IMG/VR virus record: IMGVR_UViG_3300042887_000389
Location: 1-61,230 of that record
DNA from: a virus
Direction: 5' to 3' (one strand)
DNA length: 61,230 bases
Program-made: the position numbers and the translations under genes
The notes under the pieces: model-generated
What the model saw: only the letters and a program-made list of their open reading frames with translations
Databases searched by the model: none
What the model was told of the DNA's origin: nothing
Shown: positions 128 through 59,285 of the stretch, piece by piece
How the letters are laid out: each line of letters begins with the position of its first letter
Position numbering within the stretch: the first letter of the stretch is position 1

Positions 128-1363
128 GTCCCTGCTCTGCCAGTAACTAGTAGCACTGAAGTCAATGTTGTAGTACACCAAGTACTTGGCATGCCTGAGG
201 CTTATCCCCTCCCTGCCACTAACTATCTGAAGAGCAATGCTTTTATCTGTACTCTCAAATATACTAAGCTCAGTTGTAAGTTCATCACCAAACACATCCT
301 TCAGGGCAGACAACTCTTCCTTAAATTTATAGAAGATGCCTATCTTACTTCCTTGAAATTTTTGTTTAATGAACTCAGCCTTGGTGGTGTCAAGCACCAT
401 GCTGTTACCGCTCTCAAACTTAATCGTACCGCTGCACAACTGGTGTACCTTCATCATTAACTTTGCTGCCGTGTCCGCCAATATCACCTCAGTCTTACCC
501 TCAATCACTAGGTCCCTCTCCAACTTCTTTATAAGTTGCATGGTAGACTCCTTCATCTCAACCTCTAGTATCTCCTCAGTAACTGATGACACGAAGCCTG
601 CCTCCTTCTGTGAGAAACTTATCATGTATGGCTTCATCTCATCTATGATGCTGTCCATCCCACCGCTGTAGTCATTAATGAATAGCCCATTGATGTTCTT
701 CTGCTTGACCTTCACGTGCACCTCAGCAAACTTATAGAAGTTAACGAACCGCTTGAATGGGTTTCCAGGTATGCCGTACACCTGGTGGTACATCTGTGAG
801 TAACTCTCTGGTGTTGGTGTCCCTGACATGAGTATCACCTTAGGTCTATACTTAGAGATGGCGTGTCGGATCATTACAGCCCGATTGCTGGGCTTTGGGA
901 ACGCACCTATACTATGTGCCTCATCGATAATTATTAGGTCAAATTTGAGGCTGTCTACCACGTGGTGGAGGCTCTCATAGTTGACCACCTTTATCTGGTA
1001 ACTAGGCTGTAGCAAATCATAGTCCTTCTCGATACTGCCGATGGCCTTCTTCTTTGTCACGAACAGCACAGACTTTGCTCCGCACTCACTGGCTATGCCA
1101 AGGCTGGTCAAGGTCTTGCCTGTCCGTACCTCCATCGCTAGGTACACGAAGCCATGTTCTTGTATGGCTTGTGCCCCCTGCGATATTATGTCCCTCTGGT
1201 ATGGTCTAAACTCCATGCTTCTTGTTCCGTAATGAGATAGGCAATTCTTTATATTAGTTACTACATCTGGGTCGGCAGACTTGTCCTTCGATACAACATT
1301 GTAAAGTATACCGCAGTAGCGTAGCATCTGCTCATCCGAATAGCCGGGTACTCTCTCAATCAT
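1..1363 (-). CDS. SF2 (SNF2/DEAH-type) DNA helicase, C-terminus continues across the circular junction
   Basis: Superfamily 2 ATPase expected to act on phage DNA during replication, recombination or repair. Visible motifs: a Walker A variant EVRTGKT at about residues 78-84, DEAH at 147-150 within a hydrophobic strand, SGTP at 180-183 (motif III), GREGISL near the C-terminus (motif V) and QSRDRMTTKDR (motif VI). The ATG at 1363 overlaps the TGA of the upstream primase gene (1358-1356), which suggests translational coupling. The frame is open to base 1. After circular closure it ends with two more codons and a TAG at 61101-61099, giving about 455 residues. Fold and ATPase class are clear; the precise role is inferred from position at the end of the replication operon. 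Confidence 0.9.
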   Translation of the reverse strand, partial: MIERVPGYSDEQMLRYCGILYNVVSKDKSADPDVVTNIKNCLSHYGTRSMEFRPYQRDIISQGAQAIQEHGFVYLAMEVRTGKTLTSLGIASECGAKSVLFVTKKKAIGSIEKDYDLLQPSYQIKVVNYESLHHVVDSLKFDLIIIDEAHSIGAFPKPSNRAVMIRHAISKYRPKVILMSGTPTPESYSQMYHQVYGIPGNPFKRFVNFYKFAEVHVKVKQKNINGLFINDYSGGMDSIIDEMKPYMISFSQKEAGFVSSVTEEILEVEMKESTMQLIKKLERDLVIEGKTEVILADTAAKLMMKVHQLCSGTIKFESGNSMVLDTTKAEFIKQKFQGSKIGIFYKFKEELSALKDVFGDELTTELSIFESTDKSIALQIVSGREGISLRHAKYLVYYNIDFSATSYWQSRDRMTTKDRSFNHVYWVFSKGGIEHDVYKTVIKKKDYTVNHFKN

Positions 1364-3746
1364 TTGAATGAATTATGATCCACCTACCCATCATGTCACG
1401 TCCCTCCTCAGGAGCAACGCCATACTTGAACATTCCGTACGATACCAGCCACTTGTAGAACTTGGTTCTGCTGATGGTCATCTTAGACTTTGGTCCGTAG
1501 TCAGGGTACTCGTTGACGAAGTCATTGTACAGGTCATTCTTGTACAGCCTTACCTCTGGCTCTAGCGTATTGTTCTTAGGCTGACCCTCCACCAGACCAC
1601 ACCACTCGATGAAGTCATGAGCTGTCTCCGCAGACAATTGTCTAATCTTTAGGTTGACAAACTTACTTCTCACTAGACCAGTGCTCAAGTAGTTAGCCAA
1701 GCATCTGATCATGTAGTTGTCAAACTCACACCAATCATCATCGTTCCAATCACCGAACATCAACTTACCAAACTCATCCAAAGGAGTGAATGTCTTGGAG
1801 TAGTACTGGTGTAACTCAAGCTCCCACTTACGTCTAGCAAATGAGTTGCCCGATCCCTTGATGGCATAGTTGGTAGTGATTGCAATCTTAGGAGACTTGC
1901 TGAATGGTATCTTGATTGCATCCTTGTTCTTCTTCTCTAGCGTTAGCCCCTCAGTTACTACACTGAATAGTCTCTCGAAGTCAAAGTACTTCTTCACGTC
2001 ATCGAACACTAGGATCTGCGTATCGGCAGACACAAGTTGGTAGGCGAAGCTCCGCTCAAAGGTGAATGACTTGCCATCAATAGTTACCACCTTCTTCATT
2101 CTACTTAATGCGTTCATGAACAGACCCTTACCTGTGCCACCCTCAGGGTTGTCGCTTATCACCTCATCGTTGAGGATCACAGCAGGACAGAATGAAAGGT
2201 TCTTGTATCCATGTAGTAGGAACCCAATGGTGCTCTCCATCGCCTCGACTCTACCATCATCATCCCCACAGATGTTGCGTATAAACTTCCTGTAACTGCA
2301 CGCATCTGTCACATCACACATGTTAAAGTTGCGGTCAATCACGTGGTCATTCCACACGTATCCACCTAGGTCTAGGTAGTCAATAGGCTTCACCTGATCC
2401 TTTGTCACCTGCACAGCACAGTTCTTGTAGTACAGGTAGGATGTGTCCTTGGTATCCTCGATGAAGAAGATGTCTATGGTTGATAGCATGGACAGGAACT
2501 CCTCCTTAAAGAACCTAGTCTGGTCAGCGAAGTAGTTGTACACCATGATGTCATCCAACTCAAGTAGATGGTTCAGCACGTAGTCCTTTATCTCCTTCTC
2601 AGATGTATGGTCAATCAAGTTATTTGTAACCTTCACAAACACGTAGTTCTTACCACCCTCTGGGCAGTACTTGTAGAACCCATTGTCCTCAAGGAACTGC
2701 TTGAACTGAATATGTACTATTCGAATGACTCCCTTCTCGCTCTTTTCCCAGAATGTTTTCTTTGCGTTCTCCTCCTCCACCTTGGTCAAGACTGCTTCGA
2801 TAGTATCCGTATCCAGTTGGGAGTCCTGTAGTTGGATACGTATCTCTTTTTTTGATACACCCCTCCTAAGTTTAGCCTTGATGGAGTTAATCTTCTCTTC
2901 ATCCTCGTAGTACTTGGTACCAAAGTTGGTGGTGTTCCGATAGGCTGAGTCAATTGTTGTTGCTATCTCACGTACAGAGAAGTCATCTGTGGCGTACTGG
3001 TTGAGCACGTAGGATGCAAGGCTCTTGTTGATGCCGAAGTCATTGAACGCCATCGCTAGGATGTACACGTTATGGTTCCGCTGTCCCTCCATCATTGGGT
3101 ACTTCTTCACCCACCACTTGACTAATATGTCAACCACCTTGTTCTCATCAGTGATAGGTATGGTTGGCTTGTCCTTGAACTTACTCACCTCTGTGTACTC
3201 TGGCTCCTCCAATACGTCCCATACAGATGAGTTCTCATTCACATGGATGAGTGGATCATAAGACTCGTAGCATACACGTGATACGTTCTTGCTAGTCTTG
3301 TCAAAGTATGGGCTCTTGAAGTACTTCTCTAGGCTGTTGAAGTAGTTGATGTGGTTGTCTTGGTCTGCTGGTATCTTTACCAATACCTTTAGCCCGTTCC
3401 CGGACGGGCTAATGAATACTGAGTAGACGTACTTGTTCTTAGACAAGTTCTCCTTGTCCTGTAGCAAGTCCTTCTGGTTCTGATACCCATCAAAGTCCAG
3501 ACATATCAGACCACTATGCTCCGTGATGGAGGCATCGGATCGCTTGGTGAACTTACCGCTGAAGCATATCGCTGGCAACTGCTTCTTTAGTTCTTGTCGC
3601 TCAGGCTTCCGCTTCTCTGCCCTGATCTTCTTGACCAGTTCCTTAGATGACCCAGACTTAATTCGCTCTAGGATTACGCCAACATTCCTGTGGAACGGAG
3701 CACTTGTCTCCTTAATACTCTGGAATATTGTTACTTGATATGTCAT
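1356..3746 (-). CDS. Primase-helicase: BT4734-like N-terminus plus SF3/D5-like helicase
   Basis: A 796-residue replication protein. Residues 1 to about 190 resemble the BT4734/VirE-N domain common in Bacteroidota mobile elements, with LDFDGYQ and a SPSGNGLKVLVKI segment typical of primase-polymerase-like modules. The C-terminal half is an SF3/DUF5906-type helicase: Walker A PEGGTGKG at about 534-541, Walker B ILVFDDVKK at about 577-585, and a sensor segment KIAITTNY at about 618-626. It would unwind and prime phage DNA for a host polymerase, since none is encoded here. It is the first gene after an AT-rich repeat (3771-3900) and overlaps the downstream helicase by 8 nt. Domain calls come from motif recognition; primase activity itself is inferred. 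Confidence 0.87.
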   Translation of the reverse strand: MTYQVTIFQSIKETSAPFHRNVGVILERIKSGSSKELVKKIRAEKRKPERQELKKQLPAICFSGKFTKRSDASITEHSGLICLDFDGYQNQKDLLQDKENLSKNKYVYSVFISPSGNGLKVLVKIPADQDNHINYFNSLEKYFKSPYFDKTSKNVSRVCYESYDPLIHVNENSSVWDVLEEPEYTEVSKFKDKPTIPITDENKVVDILVKWWVKKYPMMEGQRNHNVYILAMAFNDFGINKSLASYVLNQYATDDFSVREIATTIDSAYRNTTNFGTKYYEDEEKINSIKAKLRRGVSKKEIRIQLQDSQLDTDTIEAVLTKVEEENAKKTFWEKSEKGVIRIVHIQFKQFLEDNGFYKYCPEGGKNYVFVKVTNNLIDHTSEKEIKDYVLNHLLELDDIMVYNYFADQTRFFKEEFLSMLSTIDIFFIEDTKDTSYLYYKNCAVQVTKDQVKPIDYLDLGGYVWNDHVIDRNFNMCDVTDACSYRKFIRNICGDDDGRVEAMESTIGFLLHGYKNLSFCPAVILNDEVISDNPEGGTGKGLFMNALSRMKKVVTIDGKSFTFERSFAYQLVSADTQILVFDDVKKYFDFERLFSVVTEGLTLEKKNKDAIKIPFSKSPKIAITTNYAIKGSGNSFARRKWELELHQYYSKTFTPLDEFGKLMFGDWNDDDWCEFDNYMIRCLANYLSTGLVRSKFVNLKIRQLSAETAHDFIEWCGLVEGQPKNNTLEPEVRLYKNDLYNDFVNEYPDYGPKSKMTISRTKFYKWLVSYGMFKYGVAPEEGRDMMGRWIIIHSND

Positions 3747-3770
3747 AAATGTCAGATGAATGTTGTAATT

Positions 3771-3900
3771 ATGCCGTGTAACTTACTGATAATTAACTCT
3801 ATGTCGATTATGTCAATTTAAAAACCTTTCTAGATTCAAAGAAATAATAATAATATATAGAGAATATATATATATATAGGGAAAAGTAAAAATGACATGG
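3771..3900. repeat. AT-rich dispersed repeat, copy A
   Basis: This 130-bp stretch aligns nearly without gaps to 13257-13388 in the same orientation. Shared landmarks in order are CGTGTAACT, GATTATGTC, AATAATAATATATA, a TATATATATATAGGGAA run, and TGACATGG at the right end. It lies upstream of the primase start at 3746 and just left of a terminator. Possible roles are replication origin (unwinding element) or promoter/regulatory region for leftward genes; neither is proven by sequence. Confidence 0.8.
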
Positions 3901-3907
3901 ACTAGAG

Positions 3908-3934
3908 AAAAAAAAGAGGGGGAGTTACCCCCTC
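3908..3934 (-). terminator. Intrinsic terminator ending the 12.5-3.9 kb leftward operon
   Basis: On the minus strand a 7-bp perfect GC-rich stem (GAGGGGG at 3916-3922 with CCCCCTC at 3928-3934, 5-nt loop) is followed by eight T residues (A run at 3908-3915 on the plus strand). It lies just downstream of the stop at 3941 and separates the early operon from the primase-helicase transcription unit. Confidence 0.88.
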
Positions 3935-3940
3935 AGATTT

Positions 3941-4192
3941 TTAGAATGGAGACTCCCATTTATTCTCATCTACCTTCTTGCTTACTTGGTAGGTGTTGAG
4001 AGTTACGTTAAACTTGTCGGCAGTCTTGCCCTTCTTGATTTCAAGGTTGACCCATCCATCCTTTGTATTCTTATTGATGAAGTCAACTGCCTCGTCTGCT
4101 TTGATTGATAGTCTTACAACGATGAACTCTGGATCCTTTTCAGTTCTCTTTGCGATGAATCCGTTTGCGTAAATTGTTTCTTTCTTTTCCAT
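3941..4192 (-). CDS. Small conserved phage protein, possible ssDNA-binding accessory
   Basis: An 83-residue protein with alternating charged and hydrophobic strands. I chose the ATG at 4192 over one 18 nt upstream because it carries the leader TTTAATCAAATG seen before other genes of this genome. It is the last gene before the terminator, directly downstream of the exonuclease and the annealing protein. That context and the beta-rich look suggest a small nucleic-acid-binding protein of the recombination module, but no diagnostic OB-fold motif is visible, so the function is unknown. Confidence 0.7.
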   Translation of the reverse strand: MEKKETIYANGFIAKRTEKDPEFIVVRLSIKADEAVDFINKNTKDGWVNLEIKKGKTADKFNVTLNTYQVSKKVDENKWESPF

Positions 4193-4196
4193 TTGA

Positions 4197-4928
4197 TTAA
4201 AGGGTTTCATTTATAAAGTAATTGTCAATATCATCTGTTGGGTTTGGTCCGAAGTACCTGTAGTACACCTCCATTGCTCGCTCTACCTTGGCTTCTCCGC
4301 CCTTCACGAACTCTTCGGATGGTCTGAACAGACCGAGCTGCTCAGATTCCTTGTCAATAACGTAAAAGTATAGAGGCTTTCCAAATAATTGCTGGTAAAT
4401 GTAGCACTGAGAGTCATAGTTGTAACTCTTTGCAGACCACCTGAACTTGTTGATGTCTGATGTAGTCTTCAGATCAATGATTGAATCAGCAGTGACGATG
4501 TCAGCCTTCGCTTTCCATTGCAGTCCCTTAATCTCACCAATGGTTGGCTCCTCGTATAGGTTGCCATCCCTGTAGATGTCATCGTAGAACTGGAGGTTGG
4601 ACTTCATTACACTAGCAAGACGAACAATCTCATCGTACTCCTTGGTCAACATGGCGAACTCAAGACCAGAATCTTCAAGGTACTTCTTGTACTCCTTTGT
4701 ATTGCGTGTACTGACATCCACCTGTGGCACGTTTACAGCCTTCTCAGGCTCTAGAATTAGTTGATGGAATAGTCTTCCCTCATGAAAGTGTTTTGAGTCC
4801 TCTGAGCGGGCTCTAAATCGCTTGGGATTTGTGAGCAATGCATAGATGTCTGAGTTGGATAGGTAGTACTTACCCTTACCATTGTAGTACTCATCATCAT
4901 CCCTGAGTTCATCGATTATTGTATTCAT
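4197..4928 (-). CDS. PD-(D/E)XK exonuclease, RecB/RecE (ExoVIII)-like
   Basis: A 243-residue nuclease of the PDDEXK superfamily, probably degrading one strand of DNA ends to feed the phage annealing protein. Visible motifs: GRLFHQLIL at about 51-59 (family motif I, His55), Asp143 in KADIV, the catalytic IDLKTT at 151-156 (Asp152, Lys154), and a YDSQCYIYQQ helix at 171-180 that matches the C-terminal Q/Y motif. It starts inside the end of the methyltransferase gene (overlap 4909-4928), so the two are coupled. With the annealing protein at 5813-6433 it forms a RecE/RecT-like pair. Confidence 0.85.
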   Translation of the reverse strand: MNTIIDELRDDDEYYNGKGKYYLSNSDIYALLTNPKRFRARSEDSKHFHEGRLFHQLILEPEKAVNVPQVDVSTRNTKEYKKYLEDSGLEFAMLTKEYDEIVRLASVMKSNLQFYDDIYRDGNLYEEPTIGEIKGLQWKAKADIVTADSIIDLKTTSDINKFRWSAKSYNYDSQCYIYQQLFGKPLYFYVIDKESEQLGLFRPSEEFVKGGEAKVERAMEVYYRYFGPNPTDDIDNYFINETL

Positions 4929-5820: not shown

Positions 5821-6433
5821 TAACCAAGTCGGCTATTTCTTTCTTGAGTTCTACAGACATGTCATACTTGGTGGTCAACTGCTTGCCAATGAATGCAAGA
5901 CCCTTGCTCTTGTTCTCAGCCACATACTTTAGCACCTTCTTCCAATCATCACTACCCTTCACCAAGTTAACTAGTGCTGTAGGTCTGCTCTCCTCCACCA
6001 CCTTTGGCTCACTCTCTGGCAAATCTTCACCAGCGTAGATGTAGATGCCCAATCCAAACATGGCTAGGTTCTTAACCAAGCATCGCATCATTGTCTTGTT
6101 GATGTCAAACGTGGTGGCTGCATCCACCTGCTTGTCTCCGTACTTGGTAGCGTAGGAGTAAGGCTTCTTCTTCATGCTCTTGTTCTTGCCATCCATGACA
6201 GGCAACCACATCTCAAGTGTCTGACCCTCAATAGTTACCTCACTATGGCACATGAATCCAAGGTCATCATCGTACTCCGTAGGCAGGATCTTATAGGATG
6301 CATCTGGGCACTCCTTCTTAGTCACAGACCATGCCCATGCCCATGATAGGTAGGTGAGGTTGTCCTTCTTCTCAACATGCTCGTTCACATTGATGGCTGA
6401 GAGTCTCTCGAATACTGATTTTTCTGATTTCAT
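5813..6433 (-). CDS. Single-strand annealing protein, DUF1071/Sak3-like
   Basis: A 206-residue protein with the YLSWAWAW signature at about 28-35 that marks the DUF1071 (Sak3) family of phage annealing proteins, which pair complementary single strands during recombination-dependent replication. The C-terminal third is charged and probably flexible. Its ATG overlaps the stop of the upstream DnaA-like gene (ATGA at 6433-6430) and its stop overlaps the methyltransferase start. With the exonuclease two genes downstream it forms a phage recombination module, interrupted by the methyltransferase. Confidence 0.85.
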   Translation of the reverse strand: MKSEKSVFERLSAINVNEHVEKKDNLTYLSWAWAWSVTKKECPDASYKILPTEYDDDLGFMCHSEVTIEGQTLEMWLPVMDGKNKSMKKKPYSYATKYGDKQVDAATTFDINKTMMRCLVKNLAMFGLGIYIYAGEDLPESEPKVVEESRPTALVNLVKGSDDWKKVLKYVAENKSKGLAFIGKQLTTKYDMSVELKKEIADLVNA

Positions 6434-6720
6434 TTTTCTAGATTTTTAATTAGTTGTTTGTAGTCTGTGTCTGCTTGTACTTTACTATCGATTGATTTGA
6501 TCCCATGAATAATGGATGAGTGACCTATCACATACCCATTCATGTCCATGTACCTCTGGATGTAACTCACCGGTATGTTTCTCTTTGAGCATAGGTAGTA
6601 CAGCATGTGTCTTGCATCTACCACCTCCATCTTTTTATTCTTTGAGAAAATCCAATCCTTTGGGATGGAGTAACGCTTGATAATGTTTTCTAAATAGTTA
6701 TTAAAGATTTCGATTTTCAT
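6430..6720 (-). CDS. Small protein resembling DnaA domain IV (DNA-binding domain only)
   Basis: A 96-residue protein whose second half, including DARHMLYYLC and GHSSIIHGIKSI, matches the helix-turn-helix layout of DnaA domain IV (ARxxxxYL ... DHSTVxHAxxxI). There is no AAA+ ATPase part. In host DnaA this domain binds DnaA boxes, so the phage protein may bind an origin-like site or compete with host DnaA. It is coupled by ATGA overlaps to both neighbours (6720-6717 and 6433-6430). The family call comes from the motif pattern; its target is unknown. Confidence 0.78.
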   Translation of the reverse strand: MKIEIFNNYLENIIKRYSIPKDWIFSKNKKMEVVDARHMLYYLCSKRNIPVSYIQRYMDMNGYVIGHSSIIHGIKSIDSKVQADTDYKQLIKNLEK

Positions 6721-13217: not shown

Positions 13218-13256
13218 TGTTCATGCTAGATAATCTGTCATAGCATGTACGAAAAT

Positions 13257-13388
13257 ATGTCGTGTAACTAACTGAATATCAATCTACTGATAGATTATGT
13301 CGATTTTTAAACTGATTTGAAATTAAAAAAAATAATAATATATAAATAAGTATATATATATATATAGGGAAGGAGAACTTTGACATGG
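13257..13388. repeat. AT-rich dispersed repeat, copy B
   Basis: The counterpart of 3771-3900, in the same orientation, with CGTGTAACT, GATTATGTC, AATAATAATATATA, a TATATATATATAGGGAA run and TGACATGG in the same order. It lies between a terminator and the promoter of the 96-residue gene. Possible origin or regulatory element. Confidence 0.8.
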
Positions 13389-13410
13389 AATCGGGTTTCA
13401 ATTTTTTCAT

Positions 13411-13418
13411 TATCTTTG
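13411..13418 (+). promoter_or_regulatory. Putative -7 promoter element TATCTTTG
   Basis: Matches TAnnTTTG and lies 24 bases before the ATG at 13443, the same distance seen for other promoters of this genome. No clear TTTG at -33. Confidence 0.6.
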
Positions 13419-13822: not shown

Positions 13823-15412
13823 ATGGAACCTAAGGATTTATTCTTTGCCCAGGAGGGCAGACTCAAATTAATCTCTGGCATCAAGAAGATGGCTGGAGCG
13901 GTGAAGAGTACGTTGGGGCCTTATGGCAACACGGTGCTTATTGAGAGTCCTAATCACACGCATGGCATTACTGTAACAAAGGATGGGGTGACTGTCGCTA
14001 AGTCAGTTGACTTGATTGACCCTGTTGAGAACCTTGCGGTGAGGATGATGAAGGAGGCTGCTGATAGAACGGCTACCTCTGCTGGTGATGGCACGACTAC
14101 TGCCATAGTGTTGACTGAGGGGTTGGTGTTAGGAGGGTTGGAGCACATTAAAGATGACATGAGTCGCACTGAGGTGTTGAGGCACATTGGTGAGTTGAGT
14201 GGGCATGTGATAGATGGGTTGAAGAAGAAGGCCAAGAGGGTGAGCACAAACATGCTGCTTGATGTGGCGACTATAAGTGCTAACAATGACCGTGAGACCG
14301 GGAAGATTATTGCTGACGTGTACAAGGCTGTCGGCAAGACTGGCATAGTAACGGTGGAGCGGAGCCAGACAAGTGAGACCTATGCTGAGACCACGCAGGG
14401 GCTAAAGATTGACAGGGGGTACACAAGCCCACTGTTCATTAATGATCAGAGCCGAGATGAGTGCGTGTTTGAGGACGTGCATGTGCTGGTGGCTGACATT
14501 GAGATAGGTAACATCTTGCAGATTGAGAACGTGCTGAAGCCAATCATTACTGATGGGAAGAAGCTACTCATTGTGGCACCGTGCCACGTGAACGTGGTGA
14601 ACACACTTGCTGCAAACGTGATGAAGAACAATCTAAAGATGTGCGTGGTACAACCACCCAGCTTTGGGTACAAGCAGCATGAGCTGATGCAAGACCTGGC
14701 GGTGAGTGTCGGAGCGACATACTTCAGCGAGAAGACAGGCGATGACCTGAGTCAGATTACTATTGATGACCTGGGGCATGCATCCAGAGTGGTGGTGAGC
14801 AAGGACAAGACCATCATCCTTAAGAGTAACTTAAGGATAGATGAGGTGAAGGTCGAGGAGCGAGTAGCACAACTATGGCAGGCACATAAGGTCGCTAAGC
14901 GTAAGGCTGACAAGGACCACCTGCTTGAGCGCATTGCCTCACTAACCGGTGGCATTGGTGTGATATACGTGGGTGGGCAGACTGACCTGGAGCAGAAAGA
15001 GTTATACGACCGGGTTGACGATGCGGTGTGTGCTGTGAGGAGCGCATTGGAGGAGGGCATCCTACCGGGTGCTGGCAAGGCGTTGCTAGATGAGACTGCT
15101 GTGATTAGAAAGGAGCTATTCTTTAACTTAAGCAAGGAGCGTGAGGCTGCCATTGAGATACTATCAAATGCGATGATGGCACCATTCCAGCAAATCCTAG
15201 CGAACGCTGGGCTCAAGCCAAGTGACGTGTACAAGGAGGGCGTGGCTGTGGGGCATGGGTACAACCTGAAGACTGCTCAGACAGGTGACCTCATTAAGAT
15301 GGGTGTGATTGACCCACTGAAGGTGACTCGAAGCGCATTGCAGAACGCTGTGAGCGTAGCGACAACTATTCTAAGTACCAATGCTATCATAACAATTGCT
15401 AGACCATACTAA
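13823..15412 (+). CDS. groEL: Phage-encoded chaperonin GroEL (Cpn60)
   Basis: A 529-residue group I chaperonin subunit, close to the usual 540-550. It keeps LGPYGNTVLI (31-40), DGVTVAKSVDL (54-64), the ATP-binding AGDGTTTA (87-94), NDRETGKI, and the catalytic Asp near 398 in VDDAVCAVRSALEEGILPGAG. The C-terminal Gly/Met-rich tail of cellular GroEL is absent, the chain ending IARPY. It would form a folding ring, probably for virion proteins. The leader TTTAAATCAAATG precedes the ATG. Base composition is richer in G+C than the early operon (for example 32 of 60 bases at 14701-14760). GroES lies 3 kb away in another unit. Confidence 0.97.
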   Translation: MEPKDLFFAQEGRLKLISGIKKMAGAVKSTLGPYGNTVLIESPNHTHGITVTKDGVTVAKSVDLIDPVENLAVRMMKEAADRTATSAGDGTTTAIVLTEGLVLGGLEHIKDDMSRTEVLRHIGELSGHVIDGLKKKAKRVSTNMLLDVATISANNDRETGKIIADVYKAVGKTGIVTVERSQTSETYAETTQGLKIDRGYTSPLFINDQSRDECVFEDVHVLVADIEIGNILQIENVLKPIITDGKKLLIVAPCHVNVVNTLAANVMKNNLKMCVVQPPSFGYKQHELMQDLAVSVGATYFSEKTGDDLSQITIDDLGHASRVVVSKDKTIILKSNLRIDEVKVEERVAQLWQAHKVAKRKADKDHLLERIASLTGGIGVIYVGGQTDLEQKELYDRVDDAVCAVRSALEEGILPGAGKALLDETAVIRKELFFNLSKEREAAIEILSNAMMAPFQQILANAGLKPSDVYKEGVAVGHGYNLKTAQTGDLIKMGVIDPLKVTRSALQNAVSVATTILSTNAIITIARPY

Positions 15413-15414
15413 CT

Positions 15415-15648
15415 ATGGAGACAATACTTAACCCATTTGGCCACGGACAGGCGACAAAAGTCGTTGACGAGAACCGTAAGGCATGGCCTGAGTACCTACA
15501 GACTGCTGTGGTGCATGATGAGAATGAGTTCTATGTGCTGTTCGAGGATGGGCTGCTTGTAAAGAAGGGCCGCTCTAAGTTCCGCACAAGTCAATACATT
15601 AATGGTGAGAGGTTCAAGACGTTCAGAGAGCACTATGAGAACGCTTAA
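15415..15648 (+). CDS. Hypothetical protein (77 aa) after groEL
   Basis: A 77-residue protein starting two bases after the groEL stop, so co-transcribed and probably coupled. It has a strand-rich middle (HDENEFYVLFEDGLLVKKG) and a basic Tyr/Arg-rich C-terminus that looks like a small SH3-like fold. No family recognised. Confidence 0.7.
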   Translation: METILNPFGHGQATKVVDENRKAWPEYLQTAVVHDENEFYVLFEDGLLVKKGRSKFRTSQYINGERFKTFREHYENA

Positions 15649-15727
15649 GTCATGGGTCATTGTGGTGGGGCTGGCTGTGGTGTTTGCACTGCTGGTCATA
15701 TGGTGGCACGAGTTCCTGACAATGTGA
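15635..15727 (+). CDS. Single-span membrane peptide (30 aa)
   Basis: A 30-codon ORF overlapping the end of the 77-residue gene, with a basic start (MRTLKSW) and one strong membrane span (VIVVGLAVVFALLVIWW). It ends TGATG, sharing bases with the start at 15727, a standard coupling overlap. The alternative frame through the same bases would give an implausible Gly/Cys-rich N-terminal extension to the next protein. Confidence 0.6.
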   Translation: MRTLKSWVIVVGLAVVFALLVIWWHEFLTM

Positions 15728-16044
15728 TGGAGGCACCATTTGCAATTAAGGTAGGTGAGGTGCTTGAGCAGATTGAGCGCATGCTCATTGAGAAGAACCG
15801 GAAGTACGGCAACTCAGCCCTTGAGCCTATTGGTGTGTTCAGTAAGCTCTCCCCTAGGGAGGGCCTACTGATACGCATCGATGACAAACTAAAGCGAATT
15901 AAGAACGGCAGCCTAGATAAGGATGACGAAGACGTTGTGAATGACCTGATTGGGTACCTAGTCTTGTTAAAAATTCATGCAAAAAATACTGTGCCCGTTA
16001 TTGATTTGAGGACTGACCCATTCTTTAATCAGCACATAACGTAA
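15727..16044 (+). CDS. DUF1599-like nucleotide-modification-associated domain protein
   Basis: A 105-residue protein with KNRKYGNSALEP, GVFSKLSPREGLLIRIDDKLKRIKNG and EDVVNDLIGYLVLLKI, the signature of the DUF1599/Nmad family (MazG-like helical fold) found with phage nucleotide-metabolism genes. I place the start at 15727, where ATG overlaps the TGA of the preceding membrane peptide. A start at 15652 would add 25 residues antithetical to the family. Role in handling nucleotides is inferred from the family. Confidence 0.78.
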   Translation: MEAPFAIKVGEVLEQIERMLIEKNRKYGNSALEPIGVFSKLSPREGLLIRIDDKLKRIKNGSLDKDDEDVVNDLIGYLVLLKIHAKNTVPVIDLRTDPFFNQHIT

Positions 16045-16360
16045 ACTTTAGTTTACAAATGACTGACATATCATTCATTGTGGTTTACATTATGGGTTAA
16101 TGTAGTAGATATACTACCATAAGCTGCCAAACGTCTCCATTTTGTCTACATTTGGAGACTAATGTTGTCGATTTTTGGGACGAACATGTCTAGTTTATTA
16201 TACAAAATACTACACTATACTGTGATTTATCTGTATAATGTAAACCACAGCTTACATTATGACGCAAAATGTGTATTATAATGCACATTATGGGTAAGGA
16301 ATTCGGAATAATTCCGAATAAAAACCTATAGGTTCACAGATTGGGAACTTTTGTTAACCT
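16045..16360. other. Palindrome-rich non-coding region between convergent genes
   Basis: No gene is supported in these 316 bp. They contain perfect or near-perfect inverted repeats: GTAAACT/AGTTTAC (16041-16056), GTAGT/ACTAC (16102-16117), GTCTCCA/TGGAGAC (16133-16159), ATAATGTAA/TTACATTAT (16235-16260), ATAATG/CATTAT (16278-16291), ATTCGGAAT/ATTCCGAAT (16301-16319) and AACCTATAGGTT (16323-16334). The word ACATTATG recurs at about 16087, 16254 and 16285, and inverted near 16236. Possible origin, packaging or regulatory region; no T-tailed terminator stands out. Confidence 0.75.
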
Positions 16361-16897
16361 TTAAAATAACTTCTTGCTCACTCCAATCTGGTGAATACGC
16401 TGCAATGGCTGGTACTGGTACTGGAACAAGTACTTGTTGTCCAAGTAGGAAACAGATGCGCTAGGTTGGAGTAATGAGTTGACTCCTAAACCCAAGTAAA
16501 TACCCTTAGGCTTCTGTACAATTGTGCGAGTTTCTGTGTTGGTGACCGTGTTAGTTACCACCGGTATTTTAAAATCGTTCGTAACGCTCATTTTAAGGAC
16601 CTCTCCGAGGACTTCCCCGCTCACGTAGGTGTTACCATACTCAAAAGGAGTTGTCGTGCTGAAGGCCTTAATAATGGGCTTGTGGTCAACTAGGACTGTG
16701 TCCCTAAGAACTGTCTGTTTTATCTTTGTTTTAGGTACATATACCGTGTCTTTGACTTCAACTATCAGAGTGTCTGTTTCAGTTACGGTGGTAAACTTAT
16801 AAATCTCCTCTGCTTCAGGCTTAGGGTAGATAATAAAGGTCAGAACCACACCAATTAAAAAAGAGATGATTGCTATTTGTATTCTTTTATCTTCCAT
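16361..16897 (-). CDS. Membrane-anchored protein with beta-rich C-terminus (DUF6808-like)
   Basis: A 178-residue protein: an N-terminal membrane anchor at about 7-24 (IQIAIISFLIGVVLTFII), a periplasmic Thr/Val-rich region with repeated DT-V pairs (ETDTLIVEVKDTVYVP), and a C-terminal part of amphipathic strands that ends with KKLF, like a small outer-membrane barrel. The pattern resembles Bacteroidota phage proteins sometimes linked to lysis (DUF6808-like). It could span the envelope. Function is not established. Its ATG shares a base with the upstream TAA (TAATG). Confidence 0.65.
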   Translation of the reverse strand: MEDKRIQIAIISFLIGVVLTFIIYPKPEAEEIYKFTTVTETDTLIVEVKDTVYVPKTKIKQTVLRDTVLVDHKPIIKAFSTTTPFEYGNTYVSGEVLGEVLKMSVTNDFKIPVVTNTVTNTETRTIVQKPKGIYLGLGVNSLLQPSASVSYLDNKYLFQYQYQPLQRIHQIGVSKKLF

Positions 16898-17118
16898 TAT
16901 TGCTCGATAAATAAATTGTCTTCTGCTAATATTTTTCTTAACTCCTCACGGCACCATTTATAAGCCTGATAGGTCTCATCAGATAATTCTTTGTACTTCA
17001 TTTCAGAACGAAGCAACTGGTCAAAGTCCCAGATGGCATCTTTATAATTATGACCATTGATAGCGGCTTGGAAGTCCTTGTTGTCTTCAGGCAAATTAAA
17101 TTCTAGTACTGCTTTCAT
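16897..17118 (-). CDS. Conserved small phage protein (73 aa)
   Basis: A 73-residue helical protein starting MKAVLEFNLPEDNKDFQAAI, with AIWDFDQLLRSEMKYKELS. I recognise this N-terminal pattern from widely distributed phage proteins of unknown function. It is coupled to both neighbours: ATGA overlap upstream and TAATG downstream. Confidence 0.72.
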   Translation of the reverse strand: MKAVLEFNLPEDNKDFQAAINGHNYKDAIWDFDQLLRSEMKYKELSDETYQAYKWCREELRKILAEDNLFIEQ

Positions 17119-17996
17119 AGTGGGAACTTACAACTGTCTACTAATAATTCACAAGACCTGACTTCTTTTGTGTTTATTTCCTTACCAGATAGAGTAAGTA
17201 TTCTTCCACCTGTAGGTTTTATAGGGGCACCACGCTCAACATGCCAGCCAAATGCTCCATCTTGGTACTCTTCCTTGTAAGATCCGGTTATGGCTAGGTG
17301 AATCTGCTTGTGAACAATTTCATGCACATGCTTTCCTGGGTTATAAGAAATAGCATCACGTACATCATTACGGCTAGAGTTCTCATGTATGTGACCCATG
17401 ACAAAGATGTCCATGTTCTCGTACATTTCTAGGGCTCTTGTCAAGTTAATAGCTCCCTTTGTAACTATTCCTCCACCACCTGACCCATGGAAGTACTTTA
17501 AATTTTTTGAGAGTATAGTGTTGCCATTTAGATTATACTTAATAACTAACCATCCACCATATCCACCAGTATAAACGCTTGTCTTGTTGGTGTAGTTTAG
17601 CAAATCAACGAATCGTTGTAGCGGATCGGTCTCTAAGTTCTTTATGATTGCAGTCTCATGGTTACCATATCCAATTACTGTGAGAAGATGGGCGTATGGA
17701 GACCACCAATCTACAGCATCTTCAATGACTGCATCGATATAGTTGGCCTTGTTATGCTCAGGCAGAATATCCTTCTTGTTTCTTCTTGGATCATATTTTC
17801 CTTGCATGAGGCATAGGAAATCTCCGTTGATAAAGATGGGTATATTTTGTTTTTTGCAGTACTCTAAATGATCCTTTAGTTTTTCTCTATCACATTTTGG
17901 GTTATCCCAGTGTAAGTCTGATAGTAGTGCTAATTTTGTCTCTTCTCTTTTAAGTTCAAGGACGTGAACATTTCTGTTAACCTTTTTTAGATTCAT
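17115..17996 (-). CDS. Calcineurin-like metallophosphoesterase
   Basis: A 293-residue phosphoesterase with the metal-binding set: SDLHWD at 26-31 (Asp27, His29), NGDF at 57-60 (Asp59), GNHE at 111-114 (Asn112, His113), and GHIHE at 201-205 (His202, His204). It hydrolyses phosphate mono- or diesters; the substrate (nucleotide, DNA end or capped RNA) is not shown. First gene of a three-gene leftward unit divergent from the GroES operon. A TAACTTTA element upstream (near 18018-18025) is a possible promoter. Confidence 0.9.
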   Translation of the reverse strand: MNLKKVNRNVHVLELKREETKLALLSDLHWDNPKCDREKLKDHLEYCKKQNIPIFINGDFLCLMQGKYDPRRNKKDILPEHNKANYIDAVIEDAVDWWSPYAHLLTVIGYGNHETAIIKNLETDPLQRFVDLLNYTNKTSVYTGGYGGWLVIKYNLNGNTILSKNLKYFHGSGGGGIVTKGAINLTRALEMYENMDIFVMGHIHENSSRNDVRDAISYNPGKHVHEIVHKQIHLAITGSYKEEYQDGAFGWHVERGAPIKPTGGRILTLSGKEINTKEVRSCELLVDSCKFPL

Positions 17997-18082
17997 CAGA
18001 AGCTTATTTGTTGTCCATAAAGTTACTATTTTTTTTTATTTTCCAAATTCCTTTGCTATATTAGAAACATAAAAATAATACT

Positions 18083-29040: not shown

Positions 29041-29330
29041 GAGACCCTAAAGAAATTAAGTTAAAGATAATTGAGGCAGGGCACCAGGCTGTAGAGCAAC
29101 TAATTAAGGTCGCCAAGGAGGCCATCATTAAGCATGAGGATGACGATGAGTTGTCTGCTGACAGATTAAAGAATGCCGCAGCGACAAAGAAGTTAGCCAT
29201 CTTTGATGCGTTTGAGATTCTCAACAGAATAGAGGCTGAGCGTGAAGCTCTTGAGATGTTGGACAAGGGAGTGAACAGAACAGAAACTAAACAAGGATTT
29301 GCAGAGCGAAGGTCTATATCGAATCGTTAA
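29037..29330 (+). CDS. Candidate small terminase subunit (97 aa)
   Basis: A 97-residue helical, charged protein directly upstream of and overlapping the large terminase gene. Position and helical composition suit a small terminase that recognises packaging DNA, but no helix-turn-helix signature is clear. It overlaps terL by 32 bp. Confidence 0.5.
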   Translation: MRDPKEIKLKIIEAGHQAVEQLIKVAKEAIIKHEDDDELSADRLKNAAATKKLAIFDAFEILNRIEAEREALEMLDKGVNRTETKQGFAERRSISNR

Positions 29331-31536
29331 GGATCACGTCCCACAGAACTCTTTAAATAAAAAGAATAGTGGAAGGACATGGATGTACGGCTACAATGAG
29401 CAGTACGACATGGTGGTTATATCTAGGACTGGAGAGATAGGTGATATCATAAATATCTCAGGGCTGAATATTGCCCTGCCTAAGGCACCTAAAGATTGCT
29501 ATCGCAGGAGTGACTCTCCTGCAAAGCAGTACTGGGAGAGGCAAGATTTGCCAAAGGAGTTGTCAAAGATACAGTCAATCTTTCACTGGAATGAGATGCC
29601 TGCTGAGTTTAAGGACAGGTGGGTGGACTACATTGAGACAGAGTTTGATAGGCGTGAGGAGGGTATGTGGTTCATGAACAATGGTGAGCCAACATACATC
29701 ACAGGGTCTCACTACATGTACTTGCAGTGGTCCAGCATTGACGTAGGATACGCAGACTATCGTGAGGCTAACCGCATATTCTTTATATTCTGGGAGGCAT
29801 GCAGAGCAGACACTAGGGCATTTGGTATGATATACCTAAAGATTAGACGCTCAGGGTTCTCATTCATGTCATCATCAGAGTGCGTGAACATAGCCACTCT
29901 TGCTCGTGACTCTCGTGTTGGTATCCTATCTAAGACAGGTGCTGATGCTAAGAAGATGTTCACTGACAAGGTGGTCCCAATAAATAGCAGGCTACCATTC
30001 TTCTTCAGACCTATCATGGATGGTATGGACAAGCCAAAGACTGAGCTTGCGTACCGGGTACCTGCTTCTAAGATTACTAAGAAGAACATGGCGAATGCCT
30101 CTGACACTGAAGTGATTGGTCTTGACACCACCATTGACTGGAAGAACACGGAGGAGAACTCTTACGATGGTGAGAAGTTATTATTTTTGGCACATGATGA
30201 GAGTGCTAAGTGGACCAAGCCAAACAACATTCTCAACAACTGGCGAGTAACTAAGACCTGTCTCAGGGTGGGTAGCAAGATTATTGGCAAGTGCATGATG
30301 GGGTCTACATCAAATGCGTTGAGCAAGGGTGGAGACAACTATAAGAAACTATACGATGACTCAAATGTATTAACTAGAAATGCAAATGGACAAACTAAGA
30401 GCGGTCTATACTCATTGTTTATACCAATGGAGTGGAACATGGAGGGATTCATTGATAGGTATGGCATGCCTGTACTTAGAAAGCCTTCTGCTCCTATCCT
30501 TGGTGTTGACAACCAGATGATACGTAATGGTGCCATAGACTATTGGGAGGCTGAGGTGGACTCATTGAAGAATGATGCCGATGCACTCAACGAGTTCTAT
30601 CGCCAGTTCCCTCGCACGGAGAGCCATGCGTTCAGGGACGAGAGCAAGTCATCTATCTTTAACTTGACTAAAATCTATCAGCAGATAGACTACAATGACT
30701 CAATGATTGAGGGGCAGATGGTCACACGTGGGTCCTTTCATTGGAAGGATGGTGAGAAGGATGGCAAGGTTATATGGACACCTGACCAGCGTGGCAGGTT
30801 CTTAATTAGTTGGGTCCCTCCTACTAACATGCAGAACAATGTGGTGAATAGGAACGGAATGAAGTATCCTGGCAACGAGCACCTTGGCTCATTTGGCTGT
30901 GACCCATATGATATCTCTGCCGTAGTAGGTGGGAGAGGATCTAATGGTGCGTTGCATGGGATGACTAAGTACCACATGGACGATGCTCCTGCAAACCAGT
31001 TCTTCTTAGAGTACATTGCTAGACCACAGACTGCTGAGATATTCTTCGAAGATGTGCTGATGGCCTGTGTGTTCTATGGGATGCCAATGCTTGCGGAGAA
31101 TAACAAGGCACGTATACTGTACCACTTTAAGAACAGGGGCTACAGAGCGTTCTCATTGAACAGACCTGACAGGGTGCTGAACAAGTTGAGCAAGACAGAG
31201 CGTGAGTTGGGTGGCATACCTAACTCAAGTGAAGAAGTGAAGCAGGCACACGCCTCTGCTATTGAGTCGTATATTGAGAAGTTCATTGGGTTTGATATGA
31301 CATCTACCTACCGACCAGCGGATGAGATAGGCACAATGCCATTCATTAGAACGCTTGAGGACTGGGCTAAGTTTGATATTAATGACCGAACAAAGCACGA
31401 TGCATCAATCAGTTCTGGATTAGCTATAATGGCAAATCAAAAACATGTATATTTACCAGATAAAAAAGAGTCGAAAATTAGTGTTAATTTCGCAAAGTAC
31501 GCTAACACTGGAAATCAAAGTAAAATTATTAGATGA
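29299..31536 (+). CDS. terL: Terminase large subunit
   Basis: Up to 745 residues, the DNA-packaging ATPase-nuclease. Walker A is deviant (KIRRSGFSF, about 182-190) as in many Bacteroidota phages; Walker B LLFLAHDESAKW is near 294-305 (Asp-Glu). The nuclease half has GCDPYDIS near 533-540. The frame lacks an early ATG: it opens after a TGA near 29272, the best start in overlap with the upstream gene is TTG at 29299, and the first in-frame ATG is at 29383. It overlaps the portal gene as ATGA. Confidence 0.9.
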   Translation: MQSEGLYRIVKDHVPQNSLNKKNSGRTWMYGYNEQYDMVVISRTGEIGDIINISGLNIALPKAPKDCYRRSDSPAKQYWERQDLPKELSKIQSIFHWNEMPAEFKDRWVDYIETEFDRREEGMWFMNNGEPTYITGSHYMYLQWSSIDVGYADYREANRIFFIFWEACRADTRAFGMIYLKIRRSGFSFMSSSECVNIATLARDSRVGILSKTGADAKKMFTDKVVPINSRLPFFFRPIMDGMDKPKTELAYRVPASKITKKNMANASDTEVIGLDTTIDWKNTEENSYDGEKLLFLAHDESAKWTKPNNILNNWRVTKTCLRVGSKIIGKCMMGSTSNALSKGGDNYKKLYDDSNVLTRNANGQTKSGLYSLFIPMEWNMEGFIDRYGMPVLRKPSAPILGVDNQMIRNGAIDYWEAEVDSLKNDADALNEFYRQFPRTESHAFRDESKSSIFNLTKIYQQIDYNDSMIEGQMVTRGSFHWKDGEKDGKVIWTPDQRGRFLISWVPPTNMQNNVVNRNGMKYPGNEHLGSFGCDPYDISAVVGGRGSNGALHGMTKYHMDDAPANQFFLEYIARPQTAEIFFEDVLMACVFYGMPMLAENNKARILYHFKNRGYRAFSLNRPDRVLNKLSKTERELGGIPNSSEEVKQAHASAIESYIEKFIGFDMTSTYRPADEIGTMPFIRTLEDWAKFDINDRTKHDASISSGLAIMANQKHVYLPDKKESKISVNFAKYANTGNQSKIIR

Positions 31537-33968
31537 AAGATGTCGTAGTCAATATATCTTCAACAGCATTTCCAAGCCAGTTTGTTTCTGATTCGGAGAA
31601 AGCAACACCTGAGTTTGGTCTTCAGGTGGGACAAGCCATTCAGTATGAGTGGTTTAGAAAAGATGGAAGTCAATGCAGATATTACAATCAGTGGGCTGAG
31701 TTTAATCGCTTGCGTTTATACGCACGTGGTGAGCAGTCCATTCAGAAATATAAGAATGAGTTAGCCATTGATGGTGACTTATCTTACCTAAACCTTGACT
31801 GGACTCCAGTTCCTATTCTCCCTAAGTTTGTTGACATTGTTGTTAACGGCATGGGAGATAGACTCTTTAAGGTTAAGGCATACGCACAGGATGCGATGTC
31901 TCAGGCTAAGAGGAGTAAGTATCAGGACATGATTGAGAGCCAGATGCTTTCTAAGGATTTGCTTCTAAAGATACAGGGCGAGACTGGCGTTAATCCATTT
32001 GTTACTAACCCGGAGGAGTTGCCTCAGACTGATGAGGAACTATCTCTATACATGCAGCTTAAGTATAAGCCTGCGATTGAGATTGCTGAAGAGGAGGCTA
32101 TTAATACCATTCTTGATGAGAATCACTACCAAGATACACGCAAGCGTATTGACTACGACTTAACGGTACTAGGAATTGGCATTGCTAAGCATGAGTTCTT
32201 ACCAGGGTCTGGCGTTGAGGTGTCCTATGTTGACCCTGCCAATGTTGTGTACAGTTACACTGAGGACCCATTCTTTAAGGACTGCTTCTATTGGGGAGAG
32301 ATTAAGACTCTTCCTATGACTGAGTTGCTTAAGATTGACCCGACTCTTACACGTGAGCAGTTGGAAGAGATATCCAAATACTCTCAGAGTTGGTATGACT
32401 ACTACAATGTTGCTCGATTCTACGAGAACAGCATGTTCTATCGTGATACCTGCACCTTGCTTTACTTCAACTATAAGACCACCAAGAAGATGGTCTACAA
32501 GAAGAAGATTCTTGAAGGTGGTGGTACTCGTGTTATAGAGAAGGATGACAAGTTTAATCCTCCTGTAGAGATGATGGAGGAAGGTCGATTCGAGAAGATT
32601 GAGAAGACCATTGACGTGTGGTATGATGGTGTCATGGTGATGGGTACCAACTTCTTGTTGAAGTGGGAACTATCTGAGAACATGGTAAGACCAAAGTCTG
32701 CATCTCAGCATGCTATACCAAACTATGTGGCATGTGCACCACGCATGTACAAGGGTGCTATTGAGTCGTTGGTGAGAAGGATGATACCTTTTGCTGACTT
32801 GATTCAGTTGACTCACTTAAAGTTACAGCAGGTCATTGCACGTACGGTGCCTGATGGTGTGTTCATTGATGCGGATGGATTGAATGAGGTTGATTTGGGA
32901 ACAGGTGCAGCATACAACCCTGAGGATGCGTTGAGACTATACTTCCAGACTGGTAGTGTTATTGGGCGTAGTTACACTCAGGATGGTGACTTTAACAATG
33001 CACGAGTTCCTATTCAGCAGCTTACATCTAACTCAGGTGCGGCTAAGACTCAGATGTTGATTGCTAACTACAATCACTATCTAGACATGATCCGTTCTGT
33101 GACTGGTCTTAATGAGGCTAGAGATGGATCTACTCCAGATCCTAACGCATTGGTTGGTGTACAGAAACTTGCAGCACTTAATTCAAACACAGCAACTAGA
33201 CACATCCTTGAGAGTGGTCTATTTATTTATCGTACAATTGCTGAGGCACTTACGTATCGTGTTGCTGACATTCTTCAGTACGCTGACTTCAAGGATGACT
33301 TTGCTAATAAGATTGGCAAGTACAACGTGTCTATCTTGAATGACATTAAGGACCTTTACATCTACGACTTTGGTATCTTCATTGAGATTTCTCCAGACGA
33401 GGAGCAGAAGGCACAACTTGAGCAGAACATTCAGGTTGCTCTAGCCAAGGGTGATATTAATCTTGAGGATGCTATTGACATTAGAGAGATTAAGAATCTT
33501 AAACTTGCTAACCAGTTATTGAAACTCAAGAGAGTGAAGAAGCAGGAGCGTGAGGAGAAGATGGCTATGCAGAAGCAGGAGATGATGGCTCAGCAGCAGT
33601 TGCAATCTCAAGAATTTGCAGCGCAGACTGCTATGCAGAACATACAGTTAGAGGCTCAAGCCAAGATGCAATTGAAGCAGGCTGAGGTGGCGTTTGACAT
33701 TGAGAAGTTGAAGGCAGAGGCTGAGCTTAAGAGAATGTTGATGGCTGAAGAGTTTAACTATCAGATGCAGATTTCTGGTGCTAAAGAATCATTGCTCGCA
33801 GATAGAGACATGATGAAGGAAGAATCTAAAGCCAAGAGAATTAGTCAGCAGAACACTGAGCAGTCTAAGTTGATTAATCAGAGGAAGAATAACTTACCTC
33901 CGTTAAACTTTGAATCCAATGAGGATACGCTTGATGGGTTCGATATGGCAGAGTTTGAGCCACGTTAA
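31533..33968 (+). CDS. Portal protein
   Basis: An 811-residue protein between the large terminase and the scaffold/capsid genes. The segment IQYEWFRKDGSQCRYY ... RLYARGEQSI with the following helices resembles portals of crAss-like and other Bacteroidota podoviruses. The C-terminal 200 residues are a Gln/Glu/Met-rich coiled coil (barrel-like). It forms the ring through which DNA passes. Confidence 0.85.
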   Translation: MKDVVVNISSTAFPSQFVSDSEKATPEFGLQVGQAIQYEWFRKDGSQCRYYNQWAEFNRLRLYARGEQSIQKYKNELAIDGDLSYLNLDWTPVPILPKFVDIVVNGMGDRLFKVKAYAQDAMSQAKRSKYQDMIESQMLSKDLLLKIQGETGVNPFVTNPEELPQTDEELSLYMQLKYKPAIEIAEEEAINTILDENHYQDTRKRIDYDLTVLGIGIAKHEFLPGSGVEVSYVDPANVVYSYTEDPFFKDCFYWGEIKTLPMTELLKIDPTLTREQLEEISKYSQSWYDYYNVARFYENSMFYRDTCTLLYFNYKTTKKMVYKKKILEGGGTRVIEKDDKFNPPVEMMEEGRFEKIEKTIDVWYDGVMVMGTNFLLKWELSENMVRPKSASQHAIPNYVACAPRMYKGAIESLVRRMIPFADLIQLTHLKLQQVIARTVPDGVFIDADGLNEVDLGTGAAYNPEDALRLYFQTGSVIGRSYTQDGDFNNARVPIQQLTSNSGAAKTQMLIANYNHYLDMIRSVTGLNEARDGSTPDPNALVGVQKLAALNSNTATRHILESGLFIYRTIAEALTYRVADILQYADFKDDFANKIGKYNVSILNDIKDLYIYDFGIFIEISPDEEQKAQLEQNIQVALAKGDINLEDAIDIREIKNLKLANQLLKLKRVKKQEREEKMAMQKQEMMAQQQLQSQEFAAQTAMQNIQLEAQAKMQLKQAEVAFDIEKLKAEAELKRMLMAEEFNYQMQISGAKESLLADRDMMKEESKAKRISQQNTEQSKLINQRKNNLPPLNFESNEDTLDGFDMAEFEPR

Positions 33969-58443: not shown

Positions 58444-58637
58444 AAGTCCTCATCATATTCTATTGTCTTGATGATATCCCTAAGATCCTTGATAAGTATC
58501 TTAACGTCATCCTTAACGGATTCGTATTCCCTGTCCACGAGTTTCTCGTAAATCATAGCAACGCTGGCATGGAAGCCTTCGGTAGTGAAGGCTATCCTTG
58601 CTGCTCTATCCCTCTCTTGTTGGAGTCTTCCATCCAT
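58440..58637 (-). CDS. Hypothetical helical protein (65 aa), last gene of the leftward arm
   Basis: A 65-residue acidic helical protein (LVDREYESVKDDVKILIKDLRDIIKTIE). It overlaps the end of the giant protein gene on the other strand by 4 bases and the upstream DnaA-like gene by 46. It closes the leftward transcription unit. A shorter start at the next Met is possible. Confidence 0.58.
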   Translation of the reverse strand: MDGRLQQERDRAARIAFTTEGFHASVAMIYEKLVDREYESVKDDVKILIKDLRDIIKTIEYDEDF

Positions 58638-59053: not shown

Positions 59054-59285
59054 AAAAGAGTTCTGCTTTGATTCCATGTTTCTGTAGTTCTTTGATTCTA
59101 TATTCCTGTAGTTTACTTGGCTTACCTGTGGCTCGCTTCACCTCGTAGAACTCAACGTCAGAGTTCTTGGGGATAGCAATGAGGTCTGGGATACCATTCT
59201 TATTGGTCTTGATTAACTTGATAACGTAGTACCCCTGATCCTCAAGGTCCTTGATAAGCTTAGTCTGTACCTGTTGCTCTGTCAT
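59031..59285 (-). CDS. VRR-NUC domain nuclease
   Basis: An 84-residue standalone VRR-NUC domain (PD-D/EXK fold) from the ATG at 59285. Motifs: GIPD at 31-34 (Asp34), EVK at 48-50 and Gln60. These domains cleave branched or flapped DNA. It starts inside the upstream gene and its 3-prime end overlaps the DnaA-like gene. Confidence 0.85.
   Translation of the reverse strand: MTEQQVQTKLIKDLEDQGYYVIKLIKTNKNGIPDLIAIPKNSDVEFYEVKRATGKPSKLQEYRIKELQKHGIKAELFYGGSEKD

Follow-up and report, generated by a model that had tools for sequence, protein, structure and literature searches.

Two related AT-rich elements in the genome of an uncultivated phage raise the question of whether they serve as origins of replication or as control sites of another kind, and of which protein reads them. 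The elements were noticed in IMG/VR record IMGVR_UViG_3300042887_000389, positions 1 to 61,230; this whole stretch of 61,230 nucleotides is called the window here, and element positions are numbered on it.

Genomic setting

The window carries a 127-bp direct terminal repeat (1-127 and 61104-61230) and is therefore probably a complete genome, either circularly permuted or end-repeated. Terminase genes (29299-33968) and portal genes are present, and groEL is also encoded. Matches to crAssphage muzzle protein families at 39446-43912 and 45129-45935 point to a crAss-related podovirus. Genes in the early block code for an exonuclease, a Sak-type annealing protein, a methyltransferase, and a primase-helicase of 796 aa. 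No DNA polymerase family was identified among the large ORFs searched (a set without 36944-37693 and the ORF that crosses the record end), which fits use of the host polymerase. An 89-aa protein encoded just before the first element (3941-4210) ends in DENKWESPF, which resembles the acidic, F-terminated tail of single-strand binding proteins; it produced no Pfam match.

Two copies of one element

Local alignment pairs positions 3750-3901 (copy 1) with 13236-13389 (copy 2), a longer stretch than first described. The alignment score is 112, compared to a mean of 21.5 (sd 3.0, maximum 32) for 500 dinucleotide-shuffled pairs. The copies are identical in 122 of 159 columns (76.7%, or 83.0% without gapped columns), and identity over the coordinates originally noted (3771-3900 and 13257-13388) is 77.9%, or 84.1% without gapped columns. 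The repeat pair is real: the same-orientation alignment that had been estimated by eye at 70-75% was confirmed at a slightly higher computed similarity (76.7-84.1%), and all four landmark words were found in both copies in the same order. There was no evidence of a third copy in the window. The next-best stretches in the alignment scan score 26-32, and the next match to a covariance model of the element reaches 12 bits, compared to 68.9 and 64.0 for the two copies.

Each copy had also been placed upstream of a major unit. This holds, subject to a qualification. Copy 1 adjoins the start of the minus-strand primase-helicase gene (1356-3746) and is upstream of it, so a plus-strand reading of the copy runs in the direction opposite to the gene. 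Copy 2 is found at the late-gene edge, between minus-strand early genes and plus-strand late genes. The element is most naturally read on the helicase (minus) strand. Coordinates are collected in Table 1.

Table 1. Positions of the two elements, their parts, and associated genes in the window
Feature	Position	Strand	Remarks
Element copy 1	3740..3901	-	Between a terminator hairpin (about 3916-3934) and the primase-helicase start codon; upstream position kept in relatives
Copy 1 second iteron pair TGACAT, TGACAT	3740..3754	-	9-bp step; overlaps the start codon
Copy 1 IHF-consensus box TATCAGTAAGTTA (WATCARNNNNTTR)	3779..3791	-	
Copy 1 core iteron pair TGACAT-AAT-CGACAT	3801..3815	-	9-bp step; conserved in alignments
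Copy 1 AT tract (AATAATAAT, TATATATATATATA, TAGGGAA)	3818..3883	.	Ranks second in low stability among 60-bp stretches genome-wide
Copy 1 inverted iteron TGACAT	3893..3898	+	Far side of the AT tract
Element copy 2	13236..13389	-	Between early (minus) and late (plus) blocks; orientation as copy 1; second copy in relatives
Copy 2 variant iteron TGACAG	13235..13240	-	
Copy 2 iteron CGACAT	13257..13262	-	
Copy 2 IHF-like box	13265..13277	-	One mismatch to consensus
Copy 2 core iteron CGACAT	13297..13302	-	Partner degenerate (CTATCAG) in the window
Copy 2 AT tract	13303..13371	.	Ranks first in low stability among 60-bp stretches genome-wide
Copy 2 inverted iteron TGACAT	13381..13386	+	
TATCTTTG, Bacteroidota-type -7 promoter word	13411..13418	+	Faces the late genes beside copy 2; in 22/32 copy-2 flanks
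Primase-helicase, 796 aa, proposed initiator	1356..3746	-	BT4734-like_N, weak PriCT_1, DUF5906
C-terminal winged helix, residues 733-791, proposed iteron reader	1374..1550	-	Co-varying residues 736, 761, 764, 788
DnaA domain IV-like protein, 96 aa	6430..6720	-	Family match just under the Pfam cut-off

Conservation of the pair in relatives

A tblastn search confirmed 317 IMG/VR relatives of the primase-helicase, from which the best 80 loci were kept; the other relative sets likewise comprise the best 80 of 214 and the best 80 of 407, and the relatives are therefore a partial sample. Among the best 80 of the 317, most regions upstream of the primase-helicase align with copy 1. A sequence-only covariance model was constructed from both copies and run on 31 large relative records. 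Every one of the 31 is matched, 30 of them twice on the same strand at E<=1e-8; in the remaining one (G030) the second match is weak and falls at a contig end. Copy-2 rows from six of these records were part of the model, and the model recovered 24 of the other 25 second copies. Twelve further records longer than 50 kb, not searched before, were drawn from 76 stretches that match the DNA pattern of the element. Ten of them contain two copies at E<=1e-5, and 11 encode the primase-helicase, with a 51-kb one-element record as the exception. The same pair had been proposed as something to seek in related phages, and it was found there in both sets. The records in which a single clear copy was seen number three (51-53 kb), and they may be incomplete.

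Read along the helicase strand, copy 2 is upstream of copy 1; the median distance in the 31 genomes is 10.1 kb, with a range from 4.3 kb (probably a fragment) to 15.3 kb. In one relative (L084) about 1.8 kb separates the element (3407-3570) from the primase-helicase start downstream of it, a gap suggestive of inserted DNA. In a short contig that is perhaps chimeric or circularised (L059), a truncated copy of the gene is followed 2 kb downstream by the element (4309-4478) and another primase-helicase start. Sequences resembling tRNA genes (by look only) are directly beside copy 2 in L401, L402, and G020.

The elements belong to a crAss-related podophage family with relatives from lakes and the sea. 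The isolated phages nearest by primase N-terminus, Elemovirus (NC_055853), had no element match above 5.2 bits. Among the matches listed in searches of open-licence PubMed Central, none described such an element pair.

Architecture of the elements

On the helicase strand, the element starts with an inverted iteron or iteron pair, followed by a TCCCTA(T/CT) tract, TTATTATT, and a T-rich stretch. The core pair YGACAT-NNN-YGACAT comes next, then an IHF-consensus box and more GACAT iterons, which in copy 1 reach the start codon. Multiple short direct repeats (iterons) are present at both sites. The density of [CT]GACAT peaks at both elements in the relative MW202828, and in the window the top 200-bp bins are at copy 1, with copy 2 only tying with other bins. 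Some relatives carry AACAT (A-type) where others have GACAT (G-type), and one (G015) has CGACAG in both copies. The core pair can drift, as seen in MW202828, where it is TAACAT/CAACAT in copy 1 versus TGACAT/CGACAT in copy 2.

The IHF consensus WATCAANNNNTTR was taken from the portion of PMC10380432 that covers it. Window copy 1 fits only the relaxed form, with the WATCAR box WATCARNNNNTTR, and copy 2 has one mismatch; another IHF-type match near copy 2 (13280-13292) is away from the conserved place. The relaxed box WATCARNNNNTTR was identified in 74 of 104 G-type copy-1 regions (shuffle mean 3.8, maximum 8), 9 of 20 A-type copy-1 regions (shuffle mean 0.8, maximum 3), and 30 of 36 copy-2 regions (shuffle mean 1.8, maximum 4), and the strict form in 40/104, 8/20, and 22/36, respectively. 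Spacing between the box and the core iteron pair was measurable in 78 of 124 copy-1 and 23 of 36 copy-2 regions, and in all 101 it is 9-10 or 20-21 bp. These values step by one helical turn, as a bend facing the iterons would need.

The AT tracts of the two elements rank first and second in low stability in the window at 60, 100, and 130 bp. Copy 1 also ranks first in MW202828, where copy 2 is sixth at 100 bp, third at 130 bp, and outside the eight least stable places at 60 bp. The elements had been likened to origins for combining an AT-rich unwinding sequence with short conserved words, and the parts are indeed arranged as in known iteron origins; what is not supported is the binding by DnaA domain IV-like proteins that had been attached to this likeness.

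A different repeat was seen in two relatives. In L003 (43745-49889) the palindrome GTGTCGTTAACGACAC has eleven perfect copies, each of them within the early region, in the first 50 kb, and copies similar to it occur in L004 (MW202828.1). Each half of GTGTCGTTAACGACAC contains CGACAC, which resembles the iteron. Annotation places a repressor gene at 40229-40705, and the set may be a stoperator array. The window has no copy of the palindrome within 3 mismatches.

Co-variation of iterons and the primase-helicase

The fraction of A-type hexamers in copy-1 DNA was compared with 471 variable protein columns of the primase-helicase. We used 124 of 130 distinct homologues (104 G-type and 20 A-type), leaving out six for short upstream DNA or short protein. 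The four columns most strongly associated with the iteron are 761, 764, 736, and 788, and seven of the top eight fall within residues 725-796, a segment that holds 59 of the 471 columns. In phylogenetic nulls based on a tree of residues 1-720, seven was reached by none of 300 Mk traits and none of 300 Brownian traits (maximum 6). The co-variation persists when the reading frame is excluded from the DNA.

Two clades, Q761 and I761, carry most of this co-variation. T761 is replaced by Q and Y764 by F, W, or S in the first, and T761 by I and Y764 mostly by N in the second; in both, K736 is mostly replaced by a hydrophobic residue and R788 often by K. K788 occurs in 17 of 20 A-type homologues, compared to 1 of 104 G-type homologues. 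Besides the two clades, two single lineages (L293 and L297) have K788 as well, the first of which is an A-type genome that keeps T761 and Y764. When the Q761 clade is removed, seven of the top ten columns are still C-terminal, with others intruding and a weaker signal, and when both clades are removed the signal is lost (788 ranks seventh). Four I761-clade members score G-type at copy 1, and some A-type totals are small (0G/2A in L280, L281, and L300).

Copy 2 was obtained in five I761-clade records, one of which (G061) has no copy 1 identified beside the gene. Three of the five are clearly A-type (1G/8A, 0/4, and 0/7), and the other two have a mixed total of 2/2, although their core pair is A-type. 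The mean A fraction in copy 2 of 31 G-type records is 0.09. One search found no second copy in 14 of 19 records, perhaps as a result of a GACAT-trained model and many fragment records; none was found in any Q761-clade record.

The DUF5906 match in the primase-helicase is above the Pfam cut-off, and SF3-like helicase motifs were recognized by eye only. No TOPRIM domain occurs among the Pfam hits up to E 0.1, the protein having BT4734-like_N instead. The full-length AlphaFold model has a mean pLDDT of 51.5, and the C-terminus alone was used. Residues 690-796 are modeled with a pLDDT of 82 and a winged-helix topology, in which the predicted recognition helix (760-775) has 761 and 764 in its first part and the wing contains 788. 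The origin-binding domain of phage P4 (1ka8) matches this model with Z 5.1 over 71 residues; structural matches are weak overall (best Foldseek E 0.15 and none at E<=0.001, every Z under 8), and 1ka8 shares its rank with many other winged helices. Sequence profiles yielded no relative in the PDB. Comparison across the homologues indicates that the iterons and the predicted C-terminal winged helix of the primase-helicase have changed in step.

Proposed role in replication

A replication origin best accounts for the combination of iterons, a bend site, a melting tract, and a replicative enzyme whose predicted DNA-reading domain tracks the iterons. On sequence grounds, we consider it likely that the two elements act in cis as a pair of replication sites, most probably origins of the iteron type, bound by the primase-helicase. 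The enzyme would bind the GACAT iterons through its C-terminal winged helix, and a bend at the IHF-consensus box, introduced by a host IHF/HU-type protein, would join the iteron groups that flank the AT tract. The tract would then melt, and the helicase ring would load there and prime synthesis for the host polymerase. Copy 1 is in the leader of the initiator gene and so probably lets the initiator restrain its own expression. The two copies may divide the labor: copy 2 could be another origin, or it could serve as a partner site in the way that crr serves ori in phage P4.

GC skew, which had been suggested as a check, singles out neither site, because the cumulative minimum near 11-12 kb, close to copy 2, is confounded by a switch of the coding strand at the same place. 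After correction for gene strand, skew at 4-fold sites is weak; a plus-strand G excess is found only at 13823-18000, just right of copy 2, where it rests on few sites in genes of both directions.

Comparison with known systems

Iteron plasmid origins such as those of pSC101 and R6K consist of iterons together with an AT-rich unwinding region and an IHF site; they carry DnaA boxes, and the winged-helix Rep proteins that initiate there lack helicase activity. The elements share with them the iterons, the IHF-type site, and the AT-rich region, but no DnaA boxes were found here. Phage P4 has crr, a related second cis site some kilobases from ori, and the two related cis sites identified here in 30/31 and 10/12 records resemble that layout. 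P4 alpha joins a primase and a helicase in one protein whose C-terminal winged helix binds origin repeats, as outlined in part of PMC4234260; the window protein is likewise a primase-helicase with a predicted C-terminal winged helix, and the 1ka8 fold is among its tied matches. The two systems differ in that P4 alpha has a TOPRIM primase (same part of PMC4234260), whereas the window protein has a BT4734-like N-terminus. Here the iteron is GACAT, the site includes an IHF-consensus box, and the pair occurs in a 60-kb tailed phage, whereas P4 is a satellite.

The protein of the archaeal plasmid pRN1 also unites an archaeo-eukaryotic primase, an SF3 helicase, and a C-terminal winged helix, and the window protein likewise joins primase, helicase, and a predicted C-terminal winged helix; the pRN1 site, however, is described in the relevant passages of PMC4234260 as a stem-loop and not as iterons. 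SaPI Rep and SCCmec Cch2 are self-loading initiator helicases whose C-terminal domain reads short iterons beside their own gene (sections of PMC7581432). Iterons are also found beside the gene of the proposed initiator here, and reading by the C-terminal domain is proposed. According to the same sections of PMC7581432, SaPI and SCCmec origins are downstream of the gene and occur once per element, whereas here one site is upstream and the second is about 10 kb away. Features of the P4 alpha and SaPI Rep type that were identified include a predicted helicase and winged helix, an AT-rich region beside repeats, and a site by the gene of the proposed initiator.

Alternative explanations

The elements could instead be transcriptional operators with no origin function, through which the primase-helicase or another protein controls its own gene (copy 1) and a late promoter (copy 2). 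We regard this as unlikely, even though the same protein binding an operator would yield most of the evidence and copy 1 fills the gene leader after a terminator. The Bacteroidota -7 promoter consensus is TAnnTTTG, and a word of this type adjoins copy 2 in 22 of 32 regions, where about two are expected; the 32 copy-2 regions used in this and the following word counts include that of G030, which is not a true copy. However, an operator leaves unexplained the long AT tract (the least stable DNA of the genome), the flanking inverted iterons, and the phased IHF box. The apparent reader of the sites is a replicative enzyme, and in the window there is no gene start on the helicase strand just downstream of copy 2.

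DnaA-type origins, bound by phage DnaA domain IV-like proteins or by host DnaA, are quite improbable. Two such phage proteins had been named; 6430-6720 has a family match, but 58592-59077 gave none. DnaA-C-like proteins (PF08299) are nonetheless encoded in 42 of 43 records, often two per record, and may still have some role; the TTATT repeats resemble TT[A/G]T(T) motifs in the unwinding element of E. coli oriC, as given in part of PMC10380432. Against this, the TTWTNCACA box is absent from both window copies even with one mismatch allowed, and the exact box is present in 0/32 copy-1 and 0/32 copy-2 regions of relatives. A DnaA-dependent oriC was rejected on these counts. Binding by the DnaA-like proteins, as the earlier note had proposed, is thus not supported, and the co-variation of the iterons points to the primase-helicase.

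It is highly improbable that the elements are promoters of a T7-like single-subunit RNA polymerase, which might supply an RNA primer: TATAGGGA resembles a T7 start, TATATATATATAGGGAA is in both window copies, and a hairpin is located about 35 bp beyond copy 1, but no such polymerase was identified among the large ORFs searched, and a T7-type promoter identity was rejected because the core TATAGGGA is not conserved (only 6/32 copy-1 and 8/32 copy-2 regions). Just as little weight falls on partition or packaging sites (centromere, pac/cos): iteron arrays occur in centromeres too, but neither copy is near the terminase genes (29299-33968), no ParA/ParB family match was found beyond the weak one of 6430-6720, and the co-variation is with the primase-helicase.

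Implications for the family

Paired replication sites read by the primase-helicase are thus our preferred reading. A more elaborate form of it, which is tentative and which we think will probably not hold in full, is a two-site origin. The initiator would bridge the copies across about 10 kb, copy 2, located by the late promoter, would be a switch that ties origin firing to late transcription, and copy 1 would shut off the initiator gene. At least two retunings of the enzyme-site pair would have taken place in the family, one in the T761Q clade and one in the T761I clade, each matched by changes at both sites.

For most uncultivated aquatic phages no origin is known, and the elements described here would provide a recognizable signature together with a named initiator. 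The co-variation leads us to propose a residue-level specificity rule, in which residues 736, 761, 764, and 788 correspond to G or A in the iteron. The conserved duplication raises the question of whether two sites are needed for one round of replication in some phages.
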